In this document: positions 1-39,098 of the stretch, piece by piece | How positions within the stretch are numbered: position 1 is the stretch's first letter | Layout: every line of letters starts with the position of its first letter | NCBI GenBank assembly: GCA_947624255.1 | Contig: CANQJO010000007.1 | Span: 1 to 64,000, forward strand | Source: an uncultured Ruminococcus sp. | Lineage (GTDB): Bacteria; Bacillota; Clostridia; Oscillospirales; Ruminococcaceae | DNA: 64,000 nucleotides | Direction: 5' to 3' | Notes under the pieces: generated by a model | Told to the model about the DNA's origin: nothing | The model's database searches: none | What the model saw: only the letters and a program-made list of their open reading frames with translations | Translations under genes and position numbers: made by a program

Positions 1-2587
1 CGGTGCGGGAGTATTCAGTGTGAAAACGCCCCTGATCCCGGCGATAACGGCTGATGCGGCTGACTACACCGAGGGCGGATCGGGATTTCTTACTTATAAA
101 AAGTATTCAGATCATGTCGTTATTTCTGATTGTATGAACACGGCTATTAAGGTCGATATTCCTGCTGAAATTGAGGACTTGCCTGTTACGTCAATAGGCA
201 GAAAAGCATTTTATGACTGTATATTTCTGTCAGAAATAACGATTCCTGATAGTGTTACCACAATATGCAGATCTGCTTTTAGTGCCTGTCTAGACCTGAC
301 AGAAATAACGATCCCTGACAGTGTTACGTTAATAGGCGGTCATGCTTTTAGCAATTGTACAGACCTGACAAAAGTAACAATTCCTGCGGGTGTTACAGCA
401 ATAGACGATGGTGTTTTTTATGGATGTTCAAGCCTGACAGAAGTAACGATCCCTGCCGGTGTTACGTCAATAGGTGATCTTGCTTTTAATGACTGTAAAA
501 ATCTGACAGAAATTACAATTCCCGAAGGTGTTACATCAATAGGTAATTACGCTTTTGAGTACTGTCATAATCTGGCAGAAATAATTATCCCGGATAGTGT
601 TACATCAGTAGGCGATGGTGCTTTCGATGAAACACCGTGGCTTAAAAATAAACAAATAGAAAATCCGTTAGTTATTGTAAATAATATCCTTATTGATGGT
701 ACAATTTGTGTCGGCAATGTTTTTATTCCAAATAATGTTACCAAAATACTTGCAGCTGCTTTTTATGATTGTGAAGGTCTTACAGGAATAACAATTCCCG
801 AAGGTGTTACATCAATAGGCGTGTCTGTTTTTGAGGACTGTACAAATCTGACAGAAATTACAATCCCTGATAGCGTTACATCAATAGGCGAGTCTGCTTT
901 TAGAAGCTGTTCAAGCCTGATAGAAATAACGCTCCCGGATAGTGTTACATCAATAGGTAATTACGCCTTTTATGACTGTACAAATCTGACAGAAATTACA
1001 ATTCCTGATAGTGTTACATCAATAGGTGATTACGCTTTTTATGACTGTACAAATCTGACAGAAGTTACAATTCCCGAAGGTGTTACAGCAATAGACGATG
1101 ATGTTTTTTATGGATGTTCAAGCCTGACCAATATAGTAATTCCCAACAGCGTTACATCAATAGGCGGTGGTGCTTTCGATAACACACCATGGCTTAAAAA
1201 TAAACAAATAGAAAATCCGTTTGTTATTGTAAATAATATCCTTATTGATGGTAGAATTTGTGTCGGCAATGTTTTTATTCCAAATAATGTTACCAAAATA
1301 GGTGCATCTGCTTTTTATGATTGTGAAGGTCTGACAGGAATAACAATTCCCGATAGCGTTACATCAATAGACTATAAAGCTTTTTATGGATGTAATAACC
1401 TGACAGAAATAACAATTCCCGATAGTGTTACATCAATAGGCAATGCCGCTTTTGCTTATTGTACAAAACTATCAGAAATAACAATTCCTGATAGTGTTAC
1501 AGAAATAGGCAAGTATGCATTTAGATTTACAGCTTTTGTTGGAAATCAGACAGGGGTAGTATATGTAGGTAAATGGGTAGTTGATTGCTTCGATGATAAT
1601 ATTACATCGGCTGAAATAAAAGAGGGAACAAAAGGAATTGCTCCTGCTGCATTTTGTTTGTGTGAAAATCTGACAAAAGTTTCAATTCCGGAAGGAGTTG
1701 TATCAATAGGCGAGTCTGCTTTTGAGGGCTGTGCAAATCTGACAGGAATTACAATTCCCGAAGGTATCACATCAATATATGATGAGGTTTTTTGGGGCTG
1801 TAAAAGCCTGACAGAAATAACAATTCCCGATAGTGTTACATCAATAGGTGCTTATGCTTTTGAAAACTGTGATAGCCTGACAGAAATAACAATTCCTGAC
1901 AGTGTTACATCAATTGGCGATTATGCTTTTGACAGTTGTTCAAAACTTAGCGAAATCACTTTTCTTAATCCTTATTGTGATATGAACTCATTAGGCGGTG
2001 CATTACATGATGTTCCTGAGGATACTACTGTTAAAGGCTATGAATATTCAACGGCTCAGGGTTACGCTGAAAAATACGGCTACAAATTTGTTAGCTTAGG
2101 TGAAATACCGGAAACAACAACATCAACCACGACAACAACAACTACTACTACGACAACGACTACGACTACTACCACAAGTACAACTACTACAACAAGTACG
2201 ACAAACACATCTACTACGACTACAACAACGAGTACGACCACAAGTACAACGTCTACAACGAGCACAACATCAACGACATCTTCCACATCGTCAACCACAA
2301 GCACTACCACAGACGTACCTCCTGTTACCGAGCAGACCTGCGGCGACATTGACGGTGACGGAAAAGTCTCCGCTGTTGATGCATCGTTCACCCTTGCCGA
2401 GTATGCGGAGCTTTCCTCCGACGGAGAGGGAACATTCACCGAGGCTCAAATTCAGGCGGCTGATATAAACGAAGACGGTATGACGGATGCTCGTGACGCA
2501 TCGCTGATTTTAGGCTACTATACGTATCTCTCCGGCGGCGGAGGAGATATCGGTATCCGAAAATGGGTGAGCGCAGGACTAAATTAA
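1..2587 (+). CDS. BspA-like leucine-rich repeat (LRR_5) surface protein with Thr/Ser linker and C-terminal dockerin; 5' end lies outside the window
   Basis: About 23-aa repeats of the type 'LTEITIPDSVTSIGxxAFxxC'; poly-Thr linker; dockerin 'CGDIDGDGKVSAVDAS...ADINEDGMTDARDASLILGYY'. The frame is open upstream of the called GTG at 20 (..GAGVFSVKTPLIPAITADAADY) and resembles the end of a signal peptide, so the true start is probably outside the window. Confidence 0.9.
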   Translation, partial: GAGVFSVKTPLIPAITADAADYTEGGSGFLTYKKYSDHVVISDCMNTAIKVDIPAEIEDLPVTSIGRKAFYDCIFLSEITIPDSVTTICRSAFSACLDLTEITIPDSVTLIGGHAFSNCTDLTKVTIPAGVTAIDDGVFYGCSSLTEVTIPAGVTSIGDLAFNDCKNLTEITIPEGVTSIGNYAFEYCHNLAEIIIPDSVTSVGDGAFDETPWLKNKQIENPLVIVNNILIDGTICVGNVFIPNNVTKILAAAFYDCEGLTGITIPEGVTSIGVSVFEDCTNLTEITIPDSVTSIGESAFRSCSSLIEITLPDSVTSIGNYAFYDCTNLTEITIPDSVTSIGDYAFYDCTNLTEVTIPEGVTAIDDDVFYGCSSLTNIVIPNSVTSIGGGAFDNTPWLKNKQIENPFVIVNNILIDGRICVGNVFIPNNVTKIGASAFYDCEGLTGITIPDSVTSIDYKAFYGCNNLTEITIPDSVTSIGNAAFAYCTKLSEITIPDSVTEIGKYAFRFTAFVGNQTGVVYVGKWVVDCFDDNITSAEIKEGTKGIAPAAFCLCENLTKVSIPEGVVSIGESAFEGCANLTGITIPEGITSIYDEVFWGCKSLTEITIPDSVTSIGAYAFENCDSLTEITIPDSVTSIGDYAFDSCSKLSEITFLNPYCDMNSLGGALHDVPEDTTVKGYEYSTAQGYAEKYGYKFVSLGEIPETTTSTTTTTTTTTTTTTTTTTSTTTTTSTTNTSTTTTTTSTTTSTTSTTSTTSTTSSTSSTTSTTTDVPPVTEQTCGDIDGDGKVSAVDASFTLAEYAELSSDGEGTFTEAQIQAADINEDGMTDARDASLILGYYTYLSGGGGDIGIRKWVSAGLN
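2114..2313 (+). repeat. Low-complexity Thr/Ser linker-coding repeat (ACN/AGY codons)
   Basis: Runs of aca/act/acg/acc codons between the LRR and dockerin regions. Confidence 0.9.
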
Positions 2588-2758: not shown

Positions 2759-2795
2759 GGAAACTGCTGCATCAAAGATGCAGCAGTTCCTTTTT
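2759..2795 (+). terminator. Likely terminator of the LRR/dockerin gene
   Basis: GGAAACTGCTGCATC-aaa-GATGCAGCAGTTCC then TTTTT. Confidence 0.7.
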
Positions 2796-5700
2796 ATACA
2801 AGAGTTCCGGGCATTGATGCCGGTGCGTGTTCAAGATATGATTCATTCTTGGACAATTCTACCTTGTTGTAGCATTCCATTCCTGTGCCGGCAGGAATGA
2901 GCTTGCCTATGATAACATTTTCCTTCAATCCGAGGAGCTTGTCGGTCTTGCCCCTGATAGCTGCATCGGTGAGAGCCTTTGTAGTCTCCTGGAACGATGC
3001 CGCCGACATGAAGCTGTCAGAATTGGATGATGCCTTTGTGATTCCCTGAAGTACGGGACTTACCTGTACAAGCCGGAGATCATATTCACCGGCATCAATT
3101 CTTGCCTGTATTTCGGCATTTATTAAGTCGATTTCTTTTCTGTCAACGAGAGTTCCGGGCAAAAGATAACTGCTTCCGCTCTCTTCGACCTTTATCTTTC
3201 TGAGCATCTGGCGCACAATAACCTCGATGTGTTTGTCGTTGATGTCAACACCCTGTAGACGGTACACTTTCTGCACTTCGTTGATTATATAATTCTGAAC
3301 AGCCTGTATTCCCAGAATATTGAGAATATCAGCCGGATAGATATTACCCTCGGTGAGGCGTACTCCCTTTTCGATGACCTCGTTTTCCTGAACTCGTATC
3401 TTTAGATTGTACGGGATCATATAGCTCTCAGATTCACCGGTCTCATCGTTTGTGACGATGATATTTCGTGTAGTTTTGATCTCCTCGATATGAATTCGTC
3501 CGGGGATCCTTGAAAGTATTGCAGCACCCTTCGGACGTCTGCTCTCGAAAAGCTCCTCAACACGTGGAAGACCTTGTGTGATATCCTCGGCATCAGCACT
3601 TGCAACGCCTCCGGTATGGAAAGTTCTCATGGTGAGCTGTGTACCGGGCTCACCGATCGACTGTGCCGCAATGACACCTACAGCCTCGCCCACAGAAACA
3701 ACGTTGTTGTGAGCAAGATTTGCGCCATAGCAGCGTGCGCACACGCCGTACCTTGCCTTACAGGTAAGCACTGAGCGGATAACTATTCTGTCAGTACCGG
3801 AGTCGATTATCTTCTTTGCATCAGCATCGGTGATGAGCTTATTGTGTGAAACTATCAGCTCTCCGGAATCGTCACGGAGGTCTTCCGCAAGAAAACGTCC
3901 CACAAGTCTTTCAGAAAACGGCTCAACGACTTCATTGCCGTTTTTGATCTCGTATACCTCGATACCGTCAGTCGTTCCGCAATCGTCCTCACGTATGATA
4001 ACGTCCTGTGAAACATCGACAAGTCGTCTTGTAAGGTATCCTGAGTCGGCGGTACGCAGCGCAGTATCGGCAAGTCCCTTACGTGCGCCTCTTGATGCGA
4101 TGAAGTATTCCAGAATATTAAGACCTTCACGATAATTAGCACGTATCGGTATCTCGATTACCGTACCGGATGTATTTGCAATAAGTCCACGCATTCCCGC
4201 AAGCTGACGTATCTGAGAGATACTGCCTCTCGCACCTGAATCTGCCATCATCCAAATCGGATTATACTTATCGAAATTAGCTTTCAGAGCCTTTGTTACG
4301 TCATCGGTAGTATTCGTCCAAAGAGAGATTATCTTCTTTGTCTTTTCCTGTGATGAAATATATCCATATTCATACTCAGTAGTGATCTGCTCTACCTCTT
4401 TATCAGCCTGTGCAAGGATCTCCTTTTTCTGGGGAGGTATGGTCGCATCGCAGACTGCAACAGTCAGAGCTGCTCTTGTGGAGTATTTATATCCCAATGA
4501 CTTTATTCTGTCAAGCACCTCAGAGGTGGTAGTAGTGCCGTGTATCTTTATGCAGCGTTCAATGATATCCGAAAGCTGCTTCTTTCCGACAAGGAATGCT
4601 ATTTCAAGATCAAACTGCTTGTCAGAGTTTGTTCTGTCAACGTAGCCTAAATTCTGCGGAATATTTTCGTTGAAGATAAGCCGTCCCACTGTTGCATCTA
4701 TTATTTTTGAGACCTTTTTTTCACCGATATCCTTGGTGATCTTTACTCTGATATTTGCATGAAGCGACACATCATGCTCATGGTATGCCATGAGAGCCTC
4801 ATTAACATCACGGAATACCTTGCCCTCACCGGGTTCGCCGGGCTTATCCATTGTCAGATAGTAGGATCCGAGCACCATATCCTGTGAAGGAACTGCCACA
4901 GGTCTTCCGTCCGATGGTTTCAGCAGGTTGTTAGCCGCAAGCATAAGGAATCTTGCCTCAGCCTGAGCCTCTGCCGAAAGCGGAAGATGCACAGCCATCT
5001 GGTCGCCGTCGAAGTCGGCATTGAAAGCAGAGCATACGAGCGGGTGGAGCTTTATCGCACGTCCCTCAACGAGTATCGGCTCGAATGCCTGAATTCCCAG
5101 ACGGTGAAGCGTAGGAGCACGGTTGAGCATTACGGGGTGATCCTTGATAACGTCCTCAAGAGCGTCCCAGACCTTGTTGTCAGCTCTGTCGATGAGCTTG
5201 CGTGCGCTTTTTATATTTGCAATAGCCTTTTTATCAACAAGGCGTTTCAGAACAAAAGGCTTGAACAGTTCAAGAGCCATTTCTTTCGGAAGACCGCACT
5301 GATACATTTTCAGCTCAGGACCGACTACGATAACAGAACGTCCGGAGTAGTCAACACGTTTACCGAGCAGATTCTGACGGAAACGTCCCTGTTTGCCTTT
5401 GAGCATATCAGAGAGTGATTTCAGCGCACGGTTGCTCGGACCTGTAACTGCTCTGCCGTGACGGCCGTTGTCGATAAGAGCATCAACAGCCTCCTGGAGC
5501 ATTCTCTTTTCGTTTCTGACGATTATGTCGGGAGCATCAAGCTCCAGCATTCTTTTAAGGCGGTTATTTCTGTTGATAACACGTCTGTAGAGATCATTCA
5601 GATCGGATGTAGCATAACGTCCTCCGTCAAGCATTATCATCGGGCGCAAATCGGGAGGAATTACAGGCACAACATCAAGGATCATCCATTCGGGCTTATT

Positions 5701-6516
5701 TCCCGAGATGCGGAATGCCTCGATTATTTGCAGCCTTTTTAGGAGCTTTACCTTTTTCTGTCCGGAGGGTATTCCGGCAAGCTCAGCTTTGAGATCATCG
5801 GCAACAAGCTCAATATTGTTGCGCCAGTCGATATCATCAACAGCCGCAAATTTCAGACACTCCTCGCAGCCGCACTCTGTAGGCTTTTTGAAGCAGGTAA
5901 CTTTTTTTCCGCCGAGAGATACTTTTCCCATTTCAACAAGACGGTTCTTATAAGAATCATATCTTTCGGGATCGTATTCGTTCAGGAGCTTTTTTATAGC
6001 CTCAGCTCCCATTTCAGCGACAAAATCATCTCCATACTTCTCACGGTACGAGAGATACTCCTTTTCCGAGAGGAGCTGCTTTTTCACCAATTCGGTATTG
6101 CCGGGATCAATTACGATATACTTTGTGAAGTACAGTATCTCCTCAAGGCGTTTCTGCGATACCTCCAGAACCTGTCCTATCCTGGAGGGAGTTCCCTTGA
6201 AGTACCATATGTGCGAGACAGGGGCTGCAAGCTCGATATGTCCCATTCTCTCACGGCGGACTCTTGCTCTTGTTACCTCAACGCCGCAGCGGTCACAGAT
6301 CTTGCCCTTGAAGCGTATTTTCTTGAATTTTCCGCAGTGGCACTCCCAGTCCTTGGTAGGTCCGAAGATCTTTTCACAGAAAAGACCGTCACGCTCAGGC
6401 TTCTGAGTTCTGTAATTTATAGTCTCAGGTCTTTCAACAGCGCCGTATGACCAGCTTCTTATCTGTTCCGGCGAGGCAAGACCAATTTTTATTGAATCAA
6501 AAGTATTGAATTCCAA
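2794..6516 (-). CDS. rpoC: DNA-directed RNA polymerase subunit beta'
   Basis: [12 protein letters not shown] catalytic motif; zinc-binding [23 protein letters not shown]; full-length architecture. Confidence 0.99.
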
Positions 6517-6576: not shown

Positions 6577-9500
6577 TTAATCCTCGTCGGAGGAGTCGTC
6601 AAGATCAAAGCTGTCGAAAAGCTCATCGTCATCCTCATTGTCAAGATCAAAATCGTCCTCGTCTTCGTCTTCTTCATCATCAAAGGAGAAATCGTCATCG
6701 CCGTCAGCAAGACCGAGATCGTCAAGCTCGCCATCCTCAAAGGAGAAGCCTGCGTCAGCCATATCGCTGTCGGAATATGATGTCATATCCATTGTATCCT
6801 CATCAGAGAATGAATCGTCACTCGGTACAGGATCATCATCGAAATTCTGTTTAAGGTCGATCTCCTGCTGATTTTCGTCAAGCACACGAACATCGAGACA
6901 AAGTGACTGCATCTCCTTGATAAGGACTTTGAATGATTCCGGTATGCCCGGCGTAGGAACGTTCTGTCCCTTGACGATAGCCTCATAGGTATTTACACGT
7001 CCGAGAGTATCATCCGACTTTACAGTGAGTATCTCCTGAAGTGTGTATGCAGCACCGTAAGCCTCGAGCGCCCACACTTCCATTTCTCCGAAACGCTGAC
7101 CGCCGAACTGAGCCTTACCGCCCAGCGGCTGCTGTGTTACGAGAGCATACGGACCAACGGAACGTGCGTGGATCTTATCATCAACAAGGTGGTGAAGTTT
7201 GAGGTAGTACATATATCCGACTGTTACACGGTTGTCGAATTTTTCGCCTGTGCGTCCGTCATAGAGCGTGAACTTGCCGTCCTCATTCATCTCAAGAGCT
7301 TTGGGATTTATCACCTTATCCATAGCCTTGATCTCGAAGATGTCATTGCGGTGAGCCTTGTTCTTCTCATTTGCCTCACGGAAGCAGGCACGTATATCGT
7401 CCTCATGAGCTCCGTCAAAAACAGGAGTCATTATCGTCCAGCCGAGAGCCTTTGCTGCCATTCCGAGATGCACCTCAAGCACCTGACCGATATTCATTCG
7501 TGAAGGAACGCCCAGAGGGTTAAGCACGATATCAAGAGGTGTTCCGTCAGGGAGGAACGGCATATCCTCCTCAGGAAGAATACGTGAAACAACGCCCTTG
7601 TTTCCGTGGCGTCCTGCCATTTTGTCTCCGACCGTTATCTTTCTCTTCTGAGCGATATAGCAGATAACACGCATATTTACACCGGCACTCAGCTCGTCAC
7701 AGTTTTCTCTGGTGAAGACCTTTACGTCCACGATAACGCCCGACTCTCCGTGAGGAACTTTGAGTGAGTTATCTCTGACTTCACGTGCTTTTTCACCGAA
7801 TATAGCTCTCAGGAGGCGTTCTTCAGCGGTAAGCTCCGTCTCTCCCTTAGGAGTTACCTTTCCTACGAGGATATCGCCGGAGTTGACCTCAGAGCCTATG
7901 CGTATAATGCCGTGCTCGTCAAGATTTGCAAGAGCGTCCTCACCTACATTCGGGATATCTCTTGTGATCTCCTCCGGACCGAGCTTTGTATCACGGCACT
8001 CTATCTCATATTCCTCTATATGGACTGATGTGAAGACGTCCTCACGCACAAGACGTTCATTAAGGAGTACGGCGTCCTCATAGTTGTAGCCCTCCCATGT
8101 CATAAAGCCTATGAGAGCGTTCTTGCCAAGTGAGATCTCTCCGTCAGCCGTAGCAGGACCGTCTGCAAGCACCTGACCTTTCTTGACTTGTTCGTCAACC
8201 GAAACGATAGGTCTTTGGTTCACGCAAGTTCCCTGGTTGGAGCGCTTGAATTTGATAAGCTCATACTTGTGCTCAATGCCGTCCGTATCTATGACGTGGA
8301 TCCTGTCGGCATCGACATAGGACACCCTGCCGTCGCAGTCTGCAACGATACATACTCCGGAGTCAACAGCAGCCTTGTACTCCATACCTGTGCCTACGAA
8401 CGGACGCTCTGTTTTGAGGAGCGGTACAGCCTGACGCTGCATATTCGATCCCATGAGTGCACGGTTAGCATCATCATTTTCAAGGAACGGTATCATCGAA
8501 GTCGCAACAGAAACTACCATTTTCGGTGAAACGTCCATATAATCGACCTTATCACGCTCACATTCAAGTATCTGGTCACGGTAGCGTGCATTTACACGTG
8601 GTCTTGCAAACTTTCCGTCTTCGGTAAGAGGTTCGTTTGCCTGTGCAACGATGTAATTATCCTCAACATCGGCAGTCATGTAGACTACCTCGTTTGTCAC
8701 AATGCCGGTCTTCTTGTCCACCTTGCGGTAGGGAGCTTCTATAAAGCCGTATTCATTGATCCTTGCGAATGTTGCAAGGTATGAGATGAGTCCGATATTA
8801 GGACCTTCGGGTGTCTCGATAGGACACATTCTTCCGTAGTGGCTGTAGTGAACGTCACGCACTTCAAATCCTGCACGGTCACGTGAAAGACCGCCGGGGC
8901 CGAGGGCAGAGAGACGTCTTTTATGTGTCAGCTCAGCAAGAGGATTGTTCTGATCCATAAACTGTGACAGCGGTGACGAGCAGAAAAACTCTTTCATTGC
9001 CGATGAGATAGGTCTTATATTGATGAGTGTCTGCGGTGTGAGAGTGTTCACGTCCTGCGTCTGGATATTCATTCTCTCACGTATACCACGCTCCATTCTT
9101 GCGTAGCCGATGCGGAACTGGTTCTGGAGAAGCTCTCCCACCGAGCGGATACGTCTGTTGCCCAGATGGTCGATATCATCGACTGTTCCAACTCCCTCGC
9201 AAAGGTTCAGAAAATAGCTGATAGTTGCGAAAATATCGTCAATGATGATGTGCTTTGGTACAAGCTCATCAGCTCTTTTCTTGATATTCTCCTCCAGCTC
9301 CTCTTCATCAGCGGAGGTTTCCATGATCTCCTTGAGGACTTTATAGGATACCTTTTCATTTATACCGTATTTTTCGGTGTCGAAATCCACATAGCCCTTG
9401 ATATCCACCATTCCGTTGCCGATTATCTTGGCGATCTTCTCGACCATACGTATGGCAGTTTCTCCACGGTCATCGGTATAATATTCCTTTGCCTCGACCT

Positions 9501-10491
9501 TTACGAATGCCTGATAAACGCCTGCCTGCTCGATCTTGCAGGCTTTTTCATAGGAGATGATCTCCCCTGCCTCAGCGATTATCTCGCCGGTATTGGGATC
9601 TGCGATAGGCTCAGCAAGGAGTCTTCCGGAAAGACGTGAGGCAATGCCCAGTTTCTTATTGTATTTATATCTTCCGAAGCGGCAGAGGTCATATCTCTTG
9701 GCATCGAAAAAAAGGTTATTGAGATGTGTAACTGCGCTCTCTACCGTAGGAGGCTCACCGGGACGGAGTTTCTTATAAACATCAATAAGAGCATCGGAGT
9801 TATTCTTGGTCTGATCCTTCTGGAGGATAGTCTGCTTTAGGCGGTCGTCCTCGCCGAAAAGCTCATATATGTCTTCATCGGAGCTTACTCCGAGAGCACG
9901 TATGAATGTAGTTATCGGGATCTTTCTGTTCTTGTCGATGCGGACATAGACCACATCATTGGAATCCATTTCGTACTCCAGCCATGCTCCTCTGTTCGGG
10001 ATAACGGTAGTGCTGAAAAGATCCTTACCGGTCTTATCCTTTTCAAAAGCGTAATATACTCCGGGAGAGCGCACAAGCTGCGAAACGATAACACGTTCTG
10101 CGCCGTTGATAACAAAGGTGCCGCTGTCGGTCATGAGCGGAAAATCGCCCATGTAGATCTCACTTTCGCTTACAGTTCCTGTCTCCTTGTTGCAGAGAAC
10201 AGCCGTAGCTCTCATGGCGACCTGATATGTTGCGCCCCTTGCCTTGCACTCCGCAAGGGTATACTTGGGAGTGTCATCAAAGCGGTAGTCCTTGAAATTC
10301 AGAACGAGATTTCCGTTATAGTCAGTAATATCGGTCATATCACGGAATACCTCACGCAGGCCTTCACCTCTGAACCACTTATACGAATTCTTCTGGACCT
10401 CAATAAGATTCGGCATTTCAAGAGGCTCGGTAATCTTACCGAAGCTCATTCTGACGTTCTTTCCAAGCTGCTTAGGTGTAACCTTCACCAT
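6577..10491 (-). CDS. rpoB: DNA-directed RNA polymerase subunit beta with acidic C-terminal extension
   Basis: RpoB motifs ([54 protein letters not shown]). Start placed at [17 protein letters not shown] (ATG at 10491) with AAGGAGG just upstream rather than at 10698. Confidence 0.98.
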
Positions 10492-10614
10492 AGGCGGAAC
10501 CTCCTTATTTTTTGTTGAGCAGGAAATCTCCCGGTTTTTTTGCGGCAAAGGCTGCGCTCCTCCGGAGAAGATCTTCTGTGAAAAAAATCTCCGAAAAAAA
10601 AATTTAAAATCCTC

Positions 10615-10643
10615 TTGACAACCGCTGCCGTGTATGATATAAT
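10615..10643 (+). promoter_or_regulatory. Consensus sigma-A promoter facing the rpoBC promoter
   Basis: TTGACA (10615-10620), 17-nt spacer, TATAAT (10638-10643). Confidence 0.7.
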
Positions 10644-10686
10644 AACATGATAAGAGGGACATTATCCCATTCTGATACATTTTATT

Positions 10687-10715
10687 ATTATAATACATTA
10701 CTATATTTTTGTCAA
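10687..10715 (-). promoter_or_regulatory. Consensus sigma-A promoter for rpoBC
   Basis: On the minus strand: TTGACA, 17-nt spacer, TATAAT (plus strand ATTATA 10687-10692 and TGTCAA 10710-10715). Confidence 0.8.
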
Positions 10716-10741
10716 TAGCTTTTGGAAATATTTATCAAAGC

Positions 10742-10775
10742 TGCCAAATCATAGCTGATGATTCGGCATCTTTTT
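10742..10775. terminator. Putative intrinsic terminator, possibly bidirectional
   Basis: TGCCAAATCAT-AGCTG-ATGATTCGGCA then TCTTTTTG on plus. The stem has one A.C mismatch in plus RNA and one G.U in minus RNA. Confidence 0.5.
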
Positions 10776-10905
10776 GTGCATAAATACAATTTAAGGAATA
10801 TCTCTGAACAATTTTTCGTAAAGAAAAAAATACAGTCAGCACCGTACAAAGATCCTGCGGCAGATCCACCGTCAGAGCTGCCTGCTTCCGTCCGGGAGAT
10901 CAGCA

Positions 10906-12492: not shown

Positions 12493-14079
12493 TCAGTCGA
12501 TCCTTACGAATCTTCTGACATCGCCTGCTTTTCCGATGAACATTGTCTTAGGTCTTGCCCAGACAGTATCATCTTTCAGCGATCTGTAAATGACCAGCTC
12601 CTCCATTGATTCACTATGTCTTGCAACGGCAGTGACCTCATATTCGCCGCCTTTGAAGTGACGGTATTTTCCGCCTATAACGACCTCTGTGTCAACGTCC
12701 TGAATTACATTTTCCTCATCGCCGGGCTCGTTGTTCACGATGTCATCAGATACGATTATCATTGCCGAATACGGAGGCATCTTCACCGATGCCGTACCGT
12801 TCTCAATATTTATCTGCTTCACACCAATGACATCTACCAGCGCAGGAAGATGCGTTCCGAACCGCAGATCGTACTCATAGTCAGCAAGGTTAAGTGCAAC
12901 ATAAACGATCTGATCGCCTGACTGTTTCTTGAACAGGAGCTGCTGATTTGTTATGATGATCCTCTCATAGCTTCCGGTGCGCAGTGCCGGATATGCTCTG
13001 TAAACACGTCCCAGCTTGACGATGTGTCTGTAAAGCTGAACGTTCTCCCTCTCCATATCGGCAAGGTGCAGACAAGGACGAAGATTATCATCGGAGTTAT
13101 TCTCTTTTCTGCCGTGTATGCCGTACTCACTGCCATAATAAACGGAGGGGATCCCCGGCATCGTGTACATCAGCGTATAAACAAGCGGCAAATGTGCCTG
13201 ATTGTTCAGCGTGCTTGCAAGGCGGTTCACATCATGGTTATCCACAAAATTGTAGAGGTTGATACCTCTGTAGATACCGCCGTTCGCACCCGACTGACGA
13301 TTTATAGAGTAGTCTATCTCGAAATAATTCTTGTCATTGTGAGAGGAGTAAAGTCCCTTATAGCATTCATAGTTTGTAACACTGTCAAGCATTTCCGGGT
13401 TTGCCCAACGGTTATAGTCTCCGTGGATTATTTCGCCCATGAGCCAGAAATCACGCTTTTTGCCCTTGCAGAAGCTCCTTATTCTCTTGAAGAAATCAAA
13501 ATCTATGCAGTCGGCAGCATCAAAGCGTATGCCGTCTATGCCGAAAGATTCTATCCAGTAATTGACAGCATCTATCAGATGATCGCACACTCCCACATTC
13601 CGGAGGTTGAGCTTAACAAGATTATAGTGACCGTTCCAGCCCTCATACCAGAAAGGATCGCCGTAGGGGCTTTGTCCGCCGAAATTGAGGTTTTGGAACC
13701 AATCACAGTATCCCGAGCCCTGTCCCTTTTCCTGAACGTCAACAAATTGGGGGAATTTTCTTCCCACGTGATTGAAAACGCCGTCAAGAATGACTCTTAT
13801 GCCGTTTTCATGAAGCTTGTCGCAGATGAATCTGAAAGAGTTATTATCTCCAAGTCTTCGGTCGATCATTTTGTAGTCGATAGTATCATAGCCGTGTTCA
13901 ACGGACTCGAAGACAGGTCCGAAGTAAACAGCGTCAACATTCATCTCTTTGAAGTGAGGTATCCAGTCCAGCACCTTGTCAAGACGGTAAGCGACATCTC
14001 CACCATCGTTGAATTTAGGTGCGCCGCAGAAACCTAAAGGATAAATGTGGTAAACAATAGCGTTATCATACCAATTCAT
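12493..14079 (-). CDS. GH13 alpha-amylase family glycosidase with C-terminal DUF1653-like domain
   Basis: YHIYPLGF, GIRFDAADCIDFDF, GEIIHG, FVDNHDVNRL motifs; C-terminal GGKYRHFKGGEYEVTAVARHSESMEELVIYRSL. Confidence 0.9.
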   Translation of the reverse strand: MNWYDNAIVYHIYPLGFCGAPKFNDGGDVAYRLDKVLDWIPHFKEMNVDAVYFGPVFESVEHGYDTIDYKMIDRRLGDNNSFRFICDKLHENGIRVILDGVFNHVGRKFPQFVDVQEKGQGSGYCDWFQNLNFGGQSPYGDPFWYEGWNGHYNLVKLNLRNVGVCDHLIDAVNYWIESFGIDGIRFDAADCIDFDFFKRIRSFCKGKKRDFWLMGEIIHGDYNRWANPEMLDSVTNYECYKGLYSSHNDKNYFEIDYSINRQSGANGGIYRGINLYNFVDNHDVNRLASTLNNQAHLPLVYTLMYTMPGIPSVYYGSEYGIHGRKENNSDDNLRPCLHLADMERENVQLYRHIVKLGRVYRAYPALRTGSYERIIITNQQLLFKKQSGDQIVYVALNLADYEYDLRFGTHLPALVDVIGVKQINIENGTASVKMPPYSAMIIVSDDIVNNEPGDEENVIQDVDTEVVIGGKYRHFKGGEYEVTAVARHSESMEELVIYRSLKDDTVWARPKTMFIGKAGDVRRFVRID

Positions 14080-14765: not shown

Positions 14766-14794
14766 ATTATACCACAAAAGAAAGCATATGTCAA
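14766..14794 (-). promoter_or_regulatory. Consensus promoter for the HD-domain gene
   Basis: Minus strand TTGACA, 17-nt spacer, TATAAT. Confidence 0.75.
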
Positions 14795-14978: not shown

Positions 14979-17738
14979 ATGATCTTTATGAGAAGAATGA
15001 AATGTTTCAGAAACAAAGCCCTGTCAGCTATGGCTGCTGCTGTCGCAGCATCGGGAGTGCTGCTGCCGTCTGCAATACCGCTCGCTCCGGTAAATGCAGG
15101 TCAGCAGCTCGGTCAGACCAATTTTGACGATGGTGTCGGTCTGCCGTGGCATATCGTTGAATCCGCTCCCGCTGAAATGGAATTCGATATAAGCAACGGT
15201 GTCTACAAGGTCACCATAGTTGATCCCGGCGGAGCTTCAAACGGCGGTGAGGACAGGTGGGATTGTCAGTTCCGCCACAGAGGACTGAAGATCGTTGCAG
15301 GTCATCAGTATCACGTAGCTTACGAGATAACGGCAACCAACAGCGGTAAATATTATACGAAAATAGGCAATCTTGACGGCGATGTGGAAATATGGCACAA
15401 TATGTCCACCAATGAGGGCGACTTCGGCAATAACTGGGATCCCATTCCCATAAATGCCAACGAGACTAAAAAGGTGGATCTCACCTTTACTGCCTCCCAA
15501 TCCCTTGACGTTGCAGAGTGGGCTTTCCACCTTGGCGGAGACGGCGAGTACACTCCCGGAGGCTGCTTCCCGTCCGGAACAGTCATCACCTTTGACAATA
15601 TGTCTCTGGAGGATCTCACCGGCGATGAAAATGACTATATCGCTCCCGAAGAGTGGCAGCGTGCCGATATCATCACAAATCAGGTGGGATATTTCCCCGA
15701 CCGTGCAAAACGTGCCACCATGCTTTGCAGCGATGATGAGGGCGTTGACTTTGAGCTTATCGACTCCTCCGGAAACTCCGTTTACTCCGGCACAAGCACT
15801 CCTTTCGGCAGCGATGAGGATTCGGAGGACAATGTCCACATAATAGATTTTTCCGACTTCAACGACAGCGGAACATTCATCATAAAAGCTGATAACGGTG
15901 CTGAGAGCCGTGAATTCCCCATAGGCGATACATCGGTATATTCAAGCCTCCTCTATGACTCGCTGAATTACTTCTATCAGAACAGGAGCGGCATCGAGAT
16001 CGAAAGTGATTACATAACCTCCGGCGATAAAAACGCTCTTGCACGTGCTGCCGGACACCCCTCCGACATGGCAGAGATACAGCAGGTCTGGGGCTACAGC
16101 GGCAGCAGCGGCTCGATAGATGTTACAGGCGGCTGGTATGATGCAGGCGATCACGGAAAATATGTGGTCAACGGCGGATTCTCGCTGTGGCTCATGCAGA
16201 ATCAGTACGAAACAGCGGTAAAATTCGGCTTTGATGATGCCTACGCTGACGGTACGATGTATCTCCCCGAAAACAGCAACGGTTATCCCGATATTCTGGA
16301 CGAGGCACGCTGGGAAATGGAATGGATGCTCAAAATGATCGTGGACAGCGGCGATTATCAGGGTATGGCTTACCACAAGGCTCATGACGAGAAGTGGACT
16401 GCACTGGGCATCGCTCCTGCTGATGACGAAATGAAACGTATCGTAAAGCCTCCCACAACGGCTGCAACTCTGAATCTTGCAGCCTGTGCCGCTCAGGCAT
16501 CAAGGCTCTGGAAAGATATCGACAGCGACTTTGCAAAGACTTGCCTTGAAGCGGCGGAAAATGCCTACGAGGCGGCGAAAAAGCATCCCGATATGTACGC
16601 TCCTCTTGACGAATCCATCGGCGGCGGAGCTTACGGCGATACTGACGTTGATGATGAATTCTACTGGGCTACCTGTGAGCTTTTCCTCGCTACCGGTGAT
16701 GACTCCTATTATGACGATGCAAGAAATTCAAACTTTTTCCTTGAAGTCCCCACCGTTCTTGGCGGCGGCGAGAGTGTTGACACTGTGGGAAGCTTCGACT
16801 GGGGAAACACTGCGGCTCTCGGAACGTTCAGCCTTGCATTGAATGATGATGCTGTTGACAGCGGCGATCACGATACTATCGTTGAGAATATCACCTCGGC
16901 ATCACAGCACTACATAGAGCTTGAACAAAATCAGGGTTACGGCGTTCCCTACGGACAAAGCACGCTCAGCTATAATGACAGCGACAAGGGCTATATCTGG
17001 GGTTCTAACTCATTTGTAGCCGATAACTCCATAGTAATGGCGTATGCTTACCTCCTTACCGGAGATGATACGGCTCTTGACGGTGCTGTCGGCGGAATGG
17101 ATTATCTCATGGGACGAAATGCCATGGACTATTCCTATGTTACGGGATATGGTACTCATGCTATAGAAAATCCCCACCACAGATTCTGGGCAAATCAAGT
17201 GGATGCCTCATTCCCGAAAGCTCCATGCGGTGTAATGTCGGGAGGTCCGAACTCCGGTATGCAGGATCCGTGGGTACAGGGCTCAGGCTGGAAAAAAGGT
17301 ACGATCGCTCCCCAGAAATGCTATATGGACAACATCGAAGCATGGTCGGTCAACGAGTGTACTATCAACTGGAATGCATCACTTGCGTGGCTCACGGGAT
17401 TTATAGCTCAGGAAAACGGAGGCATTGTGATCGGCAGCACCGGCTCATCAACAGGTGCTGAAAATAATGGCGGTGAGGGACTTCCCAATAAAGCTCCGGT
17501 AAACAATGACGATGACAATGAGACTGTAACAAAACCGAAAACGACCTCCTCCGATAAGGACAGCAATACTGAAAGATCTGACAAAAGTTCAACAAGCAAT
17601 TTTGGTATTATTGCTTTGATCGCAGGTGCGGCTGTTGCAGCACTGATCTCCATTGAGCTTTTTGTGTATAAGATAATCAAGCTGAAAAATAACGGCGGCG
17701 GAAACGGAAACTCCGACAACAAAGACGGCAAGGCTTAG
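14979..17738 (+). CDS. GH9 endoglucanase: signal peptide, N-terminal CBM-like region, CelD_N Ig-like domain, GH9 catalytic domain, C-terminal transmembrane anchor
   Basis: GGWYDAGDHGKYVVNGG, HRFWANQ, NECTINWNASLAWLTGF (GH9). C-terminal hydrophobic segment FGIIALIAGAAVAALISIELFVYKI. Confidence 0.93.
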   Translation: MIFMRRMKCFRNKALSAMAAAVAASGVLLPSAIPLAPVNAGQQLGQTNFDDGVGLPWHIVESAPAEMEFDISNGVYKVTIVDPGGASNGGEDRWDCQFRHRGLKIVAGHQYHVAYEITATNSGKYYTKIGNLDGDVEIWHNMSTNEGDFGNNWDPIPINANETKKVDLTFTASQSLDVAEWAFHLGGDGEYTPGGCFPSGTVITFDNMSLEDLTGDENDYIAPEEWQRADIITNQVGYFPDRAKRATMLCSDDEGVDFELIDSSGNSVYSGTSTPFGSDEDSEDNVHIIDFSDFNDSGTFIIKADNGAESREFPIGDTSVYSSLLYDSLNYFYQNRSGIEIESDYITSGDKNALARAAGHPSDMAEIQQVWGYSGSSGSIDVTGGWYDAGDHGKYVVNGGFSLWLMQNQYETAVKFGFDDAYADGTMYLPENSNGYPDILDEARWEMEWMLKMIVDSGDYQGMAYHKAHDEKWTALGIAPADDEMKRIVKPPTTAATLNLAACAAQASRLWKDIDSDFAKTCLEAAENAYEAAKKHPDMYAPLDESIGGGAYGDTDVDDEFYWATCELFLATGDDSYYDDARNSNFFLEVPTVLGGGESVDTVGSFDWGNTAALGTFSLALNDDAVDSGDHDTIVENITSASQHYIELEQNQGYGVPYGQSTLSYNDSDKGYIWGSNSFVADNSIVMAYAYLLTGDDTALDGAVGGMDYLMGRNAMDYSYVTGYGTHAIENPHHRFWANQVDASFPKAPCGVMSGGPNSGMQDPWVQGSGWKKGTIAPQKCYMDNIEAWSVNECTINWNASLAWLTGFIAQENGGIVIGSTGSSTGAENNGGEGLPNKAPVNNDDDNETVTKPKTTSSDKDSNTERSDKSSTSNFGIIALIAGAAVAALISIELFVYKIIKLKNNGGGNGNSDNKDGKA

Positions 17739-38925: not shown

Positions 38926-38954
38926 TTGACATTTCCGGAAATATGTATTATAAT
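38926..38954 (+). promoter_or_regulatory. Consensus promoter of the SAM riboswitch/metK unit
   Basis: TTGACA, 17-nt spacer, TATAAT. Confidence 0.85.
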
Positions 38955-38965
38955 ACAAATATAAC

Positions 38966-39098
38966 CTTATCAAGAGCGGCGGAGGAAACAGGTCCTGTGA
39001 AGCCCGGCAACCTGACTTTATGATGACTTTCCCACAAATGTGGACGGATATCATACAGAAAAGGTGCTAATTCCTGCGGTATTTCCGGAAGATGAGGA
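38966..39098 (+). ncRNA. SAM-I (S-box) riboswitch
   Basis: CTTATCAAGAGCGGCGGAGGAAACAGGTCCTGTGAAGCCCGGCAACC...AAGGTGCTAATTCCTGC...GATGAG; upstream of metK. Confidence 0.96.

Follow-up and report, generated by a model that had tools for sequence, protein, structure and literature searches.

Two Consensus Promoters Face Each Other Upstream of rpoBC

In an uncultured Ruminococcus sp., the promoter of the RNA polymerase genes rpoBC is opposed by a full-consensus antisense promoter, and we consider it likely that the two form a conserved convergent module which restrains rpoBC in cis and thereby couples rpoBC to working polymerase. The features of the locus, numbered within the window (the whole stretch of 64,000 nucleotides that was analysed), are the following:

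2794-6516, minus strand: rpoC (RNA polymerase beta' subunit), with Pfam RNA_pol_Rpb1 domains 1-5
6577-10491, minus strand: rpoB (RNA polymerase beta subunit), open reading frame with corrected start
10492-10680, minus strand: rpoB leader, read from the sequence, which holds the whole antisense promoter
10594-10609, plus strand: UP-like element of the antisense promoter (A-tract, T-tract, A-tract), read from the sequence, with A/T columns conserved in the genus
10615-10643, plus strand: antisense (opposing rpoB) sigma-A-type promoter, 12/12; -35 at 10615-10620, TG at 10635-10636, -10 at 10638-10643
10650-10680, both strands: region in which the two transcripts are predicted to overlap by their first ~30 nt, placed from the -10 positions
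10650-10775, plus strand: predicted antisense RNA of ~125 nt with no conserved ORF, its start taken from the -10 and its end from the terminator
10667-10681, minus strand: conserved rpoB mRNA start region, AATGTATCAnnATGG in the genus and AATGTATCAGAATGG here
10687-10715, minus strand: rpoBC (sense) promoter, 12/12; -35 at 10715-10710, -10 at 10692-10687, no extended -10
10742-10776, plus strand: intrinsic terminator of the antisense RNA; hairpin 10742-10768, T tract 10769-10776, with TCTTTTTG after the hairpin

The initial annotation had described two facing full-consensus promoters at 10615-10643 (plus strand) and 10687-10715 (minus strand), and both are indeed exact 12/12 matches, reading TTGACA-N17-TATAAT on each strand. 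The extended -10 of the plus-strand promoter reads TGATATAAT, and the start sites predicted from the -10 positions lie 31 bp apart. The start codon of rpoB is the ATG at 10491 (minus strand), with AAGGAGG just upstream, instead of 10698 as in the mechanical ORF list, so that the leader is ~190 nt long and the antisense promoter lies wholly within it. The N-terminal 120 aa of RpoB match RpoB loci in nearly all of the genomes searched.

Exact matches to TTGACA-N17-TATAAT occur eight times in the 64 kb, against 0.01 expected from shuffled sequences (about 800-fold enrichment), which excludes chance for these promoters. Since exact consensus promoters are common in this genome, one alone is unsurprising. 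The other matches in the window are at 14766, 19740, 38926, 48530, 53581 and 62385, and a SAM riboswitch (38926-39098, plus strand; RF00162, 71 bits) immediately follows an exact consensus promoter. A face-to-face consensus pair with 36-50 bp between the -10 elements, by comparison, was found at one site in the whole 2.24-Mb genome, and a looser promoter pattern added one match in the same genome, which was one-sided. It is thus the face-to-face pairing, and not a single promoter, that is the unusual feature of the locus.

The Antisense Promoter Is Invariant within Ruminococcus

The region served as the query against 100 genomes of the genus, and we obtained the rpoB-upstream DNA of 94 (96 loci); the six genomes left out at this locus comprised five without a match and one with a weak match only. 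Because many loci were found through the rpoB coding match, the sample was not selected for the promoter. In these related genomes, where the initial annotation had suggested looking for both promoters, the rpoB promoter matched the consensus at 10-12 of 12 positions, and the antisense promoter was 12/12 at all 96 rpoB-upstream loci (94 Ruminococcus genomes). Hence, the loss of the plus-strand promoter from close relatives, which would have spoken against the proposal, was seen at none of the 96 loci.

Relatedness inflates such counts, and comparisons were therefore made within the same sequences, that is, hexamers against spacers and antisense against sense. In 85 distinct sequences, the TTGACA, the TATAAT and the TG of the extended -10 are invariant, whereas the antisense spacer is 17 bp long in 46 and 18 bp long in 39, and most of its columns are just 34-70% identical. 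Variable spacers beside invariant hexamers indicate that the invariance reflects more than recent common descent. The rpoB promoter, by contrast, has a perfect -35 in 76 and a perfect -10 in 61 of 82 sequences and lacks an extended -10, so in this sample the antisense promoter is more strictly conserved than the promoter of rpoB itself. The A-tract/T-tract/A-tract upstream of the antisense -35, which we compared with the UP consensus, is also conserved in the genus and is UP-element-like. Judged by sequence, the antisense promoter has all the main strengthening elements, namely a UP-like tract, a consensus -35, an extended -10 and a consensus -10.

The geometry of the pair is narrowly bounded as well: the gap from -10 to -10 is 41-48 bp in the genus, which places the predicted start sites 29-36 bp apart. 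The distance from the promoter pair to rpoB varies widely.

The conserved columns could instead mark a protein-binding site or an element of the rpoB leader RNA that merely resembles a promoter, as the rpoB start region is conserved by itself, also where no antisense promoter is visible, but we regard this as very improbable, because the invariant columns outside the start region are exactly the antisense promoter elements, the spacer has the 17/18-bp freedom that a sigma-A promoter allows and the A/T tract is rightly placed.

Antisense Promoters and the rpoB Start Region beyond the Genus

Of 71 loci from the family's other genera, 33 have a TGnTATA(A/C)T on the antisense strand 36-56 bp from the sense -10, and elsewhere in those 71 leaders the same motif occurs only once more. 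The -35 that accompanies it is mostly a weaker one, such as TTGATT or TTGCCA. Outside the family, the motif is rare at this spacing (5 of 45 loci). In several other Clostridia (loci L307, L309-L311 and L315 among them), the rpoB leader contains an antisense extended -10 that is more distant; in one such family, 7 of 10 loci retain it. In the rpoB leaders of one other Clostridia family (L310, L311 and L336-L340), the stretch ATAATTATAgCATATaCGAATAAaCAAGACAATAATTGTTAATAATATTTTAATG around the antisense extended -10 is conserved, farther from the sense promoter than in Ruminococcus. Judging from these distributions, the antisense promoter probably predates the genus, with Ruminococcus having sharpened it to full consensus and many relatives having lost it or never had it. 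As about half of the family loci are without a strict antisense extended -10, rpoBC control in general can do without it.

In the order, full-consensus face-to-face promoters were also seen at L101-L104, where they surround a palindrome-like ACATAACGACGTTATGT and resemble opposed gene starts with an operator. By eye, the L101 pair lies between TetR-like and DegV-like ORFs, apparently as ordinary opposed gene starts.

The rpoB start region is retained also where the antisense promoter is absent. In Ruminococcus, AATGTATCAnnATGG is near-invariant; relatives in the order have CTGTATCATAATGG, and AAATTGCATT is a possible relative in other Clostridia. The region may be what makes promoter escape slow or causes a pause close to the start. 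A -10-like TATCAT lies inside it, and through this element the region could slow promoter escape, thereby favouring interference. We also considered a motif common to many promoters and rejected it: matches with at most three mismatches were about twice as frequent in the genus as with a reversed-pattern control, and the best of the matches listed were mostly rpoB.

Proposed Interference in cis and Comparison with Known Systems

The architecture of the module, as read from the DNA, comprises both promoters, their conservation, their spacing, their asymmetry, the terminator and an independence from the neighbouring genes. We infer activity of the antisense promoter, interference with the rpoB promoter and, as the net outcome, negative feedback in place of simple damping. 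Polymerases binding or leaving the antisense promoter would occupy, overrun or dislodge polymerase at the rpoB promoter ~30 bp away and would themselves halt at the terminator after ~122 nt, leaving the neighbouring gene undisturbed. As the repressor in this scheme is transcription itself, the output of rpoBC should follow the free working RNA polymerase carrying the housekeeping sigma factor. With ample active polymerase, frequent antisense firing would hold rpoBC down, and a shortage or poisoning of active polymerase should relieve rpoBC of this restraint.

We explored this scheme with a toy kinetic model of the promoter pair, the rates of which were invented. When both promoters could be occupied together, modelled sense output peaked at low polymerase and then fell from 0.94 to 0.14 per minute over a 25-fold rise in polymerase, and it rose about threefold with 10% poisoned polymerase. 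Under mutual exclusion, by contrast, output just saturated without negative feedback, and poison lowered it. The 31 bp between the predicted start sites may be too short for two simultaneous open complexes. Polymerase might also leave a full-consensus antisense promoter slowly, and the promoter would then serve chiefly as a roadblock.

The closest layout that we found is that of Bacillus subtilis helD and pps, where a sense promoter is faced by a stronger antisense promoter, whose polymerases repress the gene until rifampicin stalls them (Sudzinova et al. 2026, PMC12802891). Both there and here, sigma-A promoters face each other before one gene, the antisense one has an extended -10 and lies in the leader, the start sites, here predicted ones, are a few tens of bp apart and the antisense side looks the stronger, here as judged from its motifs. 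The antisense RNA is short in B. subtilis (~90 nt, PMC12802891) and is predicted to be so here (~122 nt). The helD/pps type is further marked by slow promoter escape on the sense side. Unlike helD and pps, the target in Ruminococcus is rpoBC itself, and the antisense promoter is full consensus with a UP-like tract and a 17/18-bp spacer (85 distinct sequences) in place of one of 19 bp (PMC12802891). The 19-bp spacer is a trait of the helD and pps examples and is not shown to be essential there.

This likeness raises the question of whether the pair is a full helD-like rifampicin alarm, chiefly inducing rpoBC when rifampicin-type antibiotics stall polymerase at the antisense promoter. Besides the shared layout, with its stronger-looking antisense promoter, extended -10 and short antisense RNA, the induction of mycobacterial rpoBC by polymerase inhibitors is in its favour. 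However, the start sites of helD are 39 bp apart, and induction was lost there once 17 bp had been removed to leave 22 bp (PMC12802891); those predicted in the genus are 29-36 bp apart. The 31 bp of this locus lies between the working 39 bp and the failing 22 bp, which makes rifampicin induction here uncertain, and the toy model gave no induction under mutual exclusion. Near-invariance across the genus, moreover, suggests an everyday role over a response to rare drugs. We therefore consider an alarm of this kind unlikely as the chief function of the pair.

The proposed restraint of rpoBC by a second promoter has a parallel in mycobacteria, in which two tandem promoters precede rpoBC, one restraining the other, and RNA polymerase inhibitors relieve the restraint and raise rpoBC (Zhu et al. 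2018, PMC6181997). The mycobacterial promoters both read into rpoB, whereas those of Ruminococcus are opposed. In Escherichia coli, as far as the accounts cited in PMC6181997 and PMC1242208 go, rifampicin increases readthrough of an attenuator before rpoBC, and autogenous control was proposed. On those accounts, the two systems share an untranslated control region before rpoB and differ in that E. coli uses terminator readthrough after ribosomal-protein genes and Ruminococcus an rpoBC promoter of its own. None of the three ORFs upstream of rpoBC in the window gave a ribosomal-protein match, and the neighbours vary in the genus. As far as PMC12802891 describes the convergent promoters of phage 186 and Shigella icsA, they have asymmetric face-to-face interference in common with this locus, and the genes, regulators and purpose differ.

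The Ruminococcus module, as predicted, thus joins the helD/pps layout to the target of mycobacterial and E. coli rpoBC control. Our literature search, with Supplementary Table S3 of PMC12802891 outside its scope, found nothing relevant on the rpoB promoter of Ruminococcus or on antisense promoters at rpoB.

The Antisense RNA, Its Terminator and the Neighbouring Genes

The initial annotation had also predicted a plus-strand RNA of ~125 nt that ends at a hairpin and a T-tract and has no good ORF. The hairpin at 10742-10768 and a predicted length of ~125 nt agree with this, and the genus comparison likewise found no conserved ORF on the antisense RNA. Using the 95% level of shuffled sequences as the threshold, we detected a terminator-like hairpin on the antisense strand at 70 of 93 genus loci, compared with 25 of 93 on the other strand; at some of the remaining loci, hairpins and T runs are visible by eye and fail the strict rule. 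Measured to these terminators, the predicted antisense RNA has a median length of 122 nt in the genus.

One alternative to interference is that the transcript acts as an RNA, its first 30 nt pairing with the 5' end of the rpoB mRNA to affect stability or translation, or the whole working as a small RNA in trans. The transcripts are predicted to overlap by ~30 nt, the overlap is well conserved and the antisense RNA has its own terminator. Against this, no consensus fold emerged from the genus alignment for either strand of the stretch between the promoters, the Rfam covariance models gave no match at the locus, and those parts of the antisense RNA that serve neither promoter nor terminator vary freely. 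The overlap is, moreover, distant from the rpoB ribosome-binding site. A form of the rpoB start region persists at 26 family loci without a strict antisense -10, and the conserved 5' overlap is therefore explained as a property of the rpoB start region. Taken together, these observations make a role of the transcript as RNA improbable.

More specific candidates were rejected along the same lines. A trans-acting or structured small RNA has neither an Rfam match nor a consensus fold between the promoters on either strand to recommend it; a 6S-like RNA likewise has no Rfam match here, and the genome's own 6S RNA is on another contig. A small peptide was dismissed because a ribosome-binding-like motif was present in only 1 of 66 candidate ORFs and the gap lengths vary. 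Of the two readings that the initial annotation had left side by side, an antisense or interference device is thus strongly supported by conservation, geometry, promoter strength and precedents, and a stand-alone small RNA has become the less likely one, with no conserved fold or ORF and with variation in the parts that promoters and terminator do not need. As neither a fold nor an ORF is conserved, it is probably the act of antisense transcription that matters, and what appears to be under selection is the ability to start, run for ~120 nt and stop.

Nor does the plus-strand promoter seem to serve the upstream gene or to be a by-product without effect on rpoBC, which we hold to be most unlikely. 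Consensus promoters are frequent in the genome, and among the 72 loci whose flank was long enough, 42 have a closest upstream gene that is divergent from rpoB, and so co-oriented with the antisense RNA. However, that gene is co-directional with rpoB in the other 30, a terminator intervenes in most loci, and the upstream neighbours fall into more than 20 protein groups that are unrelated by BLASTP, yet the promoter is invariant. Since the neighbours vary in both kind and orientation, the promoter and terminator belong with rpoBC and not with a neighbouring gene, and synteny has largely refuted this explanation already.

Within the window, rpoBC is flanked by cellulosome-type genes, a BspA-type leucine-rich-repeat protein with a dockerin domain (20-2587, plus strand) and a GH9 cellulase-type protein with a CBM (14979-17738, plus strand). 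The minus-strand gene at 12493-14079 encodes a protein that combines an alpha-amylase domain with a DUF1653 domain at the C terminus. Among named organisms, the closest relatives are Ruminococcus, with R. flavefaciens FD-1, 007c and ATCC 19208 among them, and dockerin and GH9 proteins are expected in a cellulosome-forming Ruminococcus. Plasmid records gave no match.

Implications for the Control of RNA Polymerase Levels

To our knowledge, the control of the amount of core RNA polymerase in bacteria is largely open outside a few models. The interference interpretation of the Ruminococcus locus is well supported by the sequence comparisons described above, and a coupling of rpoBC to polymerase abundance is plausible. 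With rather less confidence, we suggest that the opposed promoters might form a self-referential gauge, which measures active RNA polymerase before its own genes and so provides a protein-free negative feedback on rpoBC in Ruminococcus, weaker or wider-spaced in other Clostridia; the need to report how much polymerase is available would then be what holds the antisense promoter at full consensus. That no examined locus departs from the consensus, a stricter conservation than in the opposed rpoB promoter, is an unusually clear sign of selection for antisense transcription. For the gut and rumen bacteria of this large group, the locus thus offers a specific, testable and protein-free answer to how RNA polymerase levels may be set. 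With it, the convergent-promoter principle, which was described in 2026 as a drug alarm, would also cover the RNA polymerase genes, where the sensor is the product.
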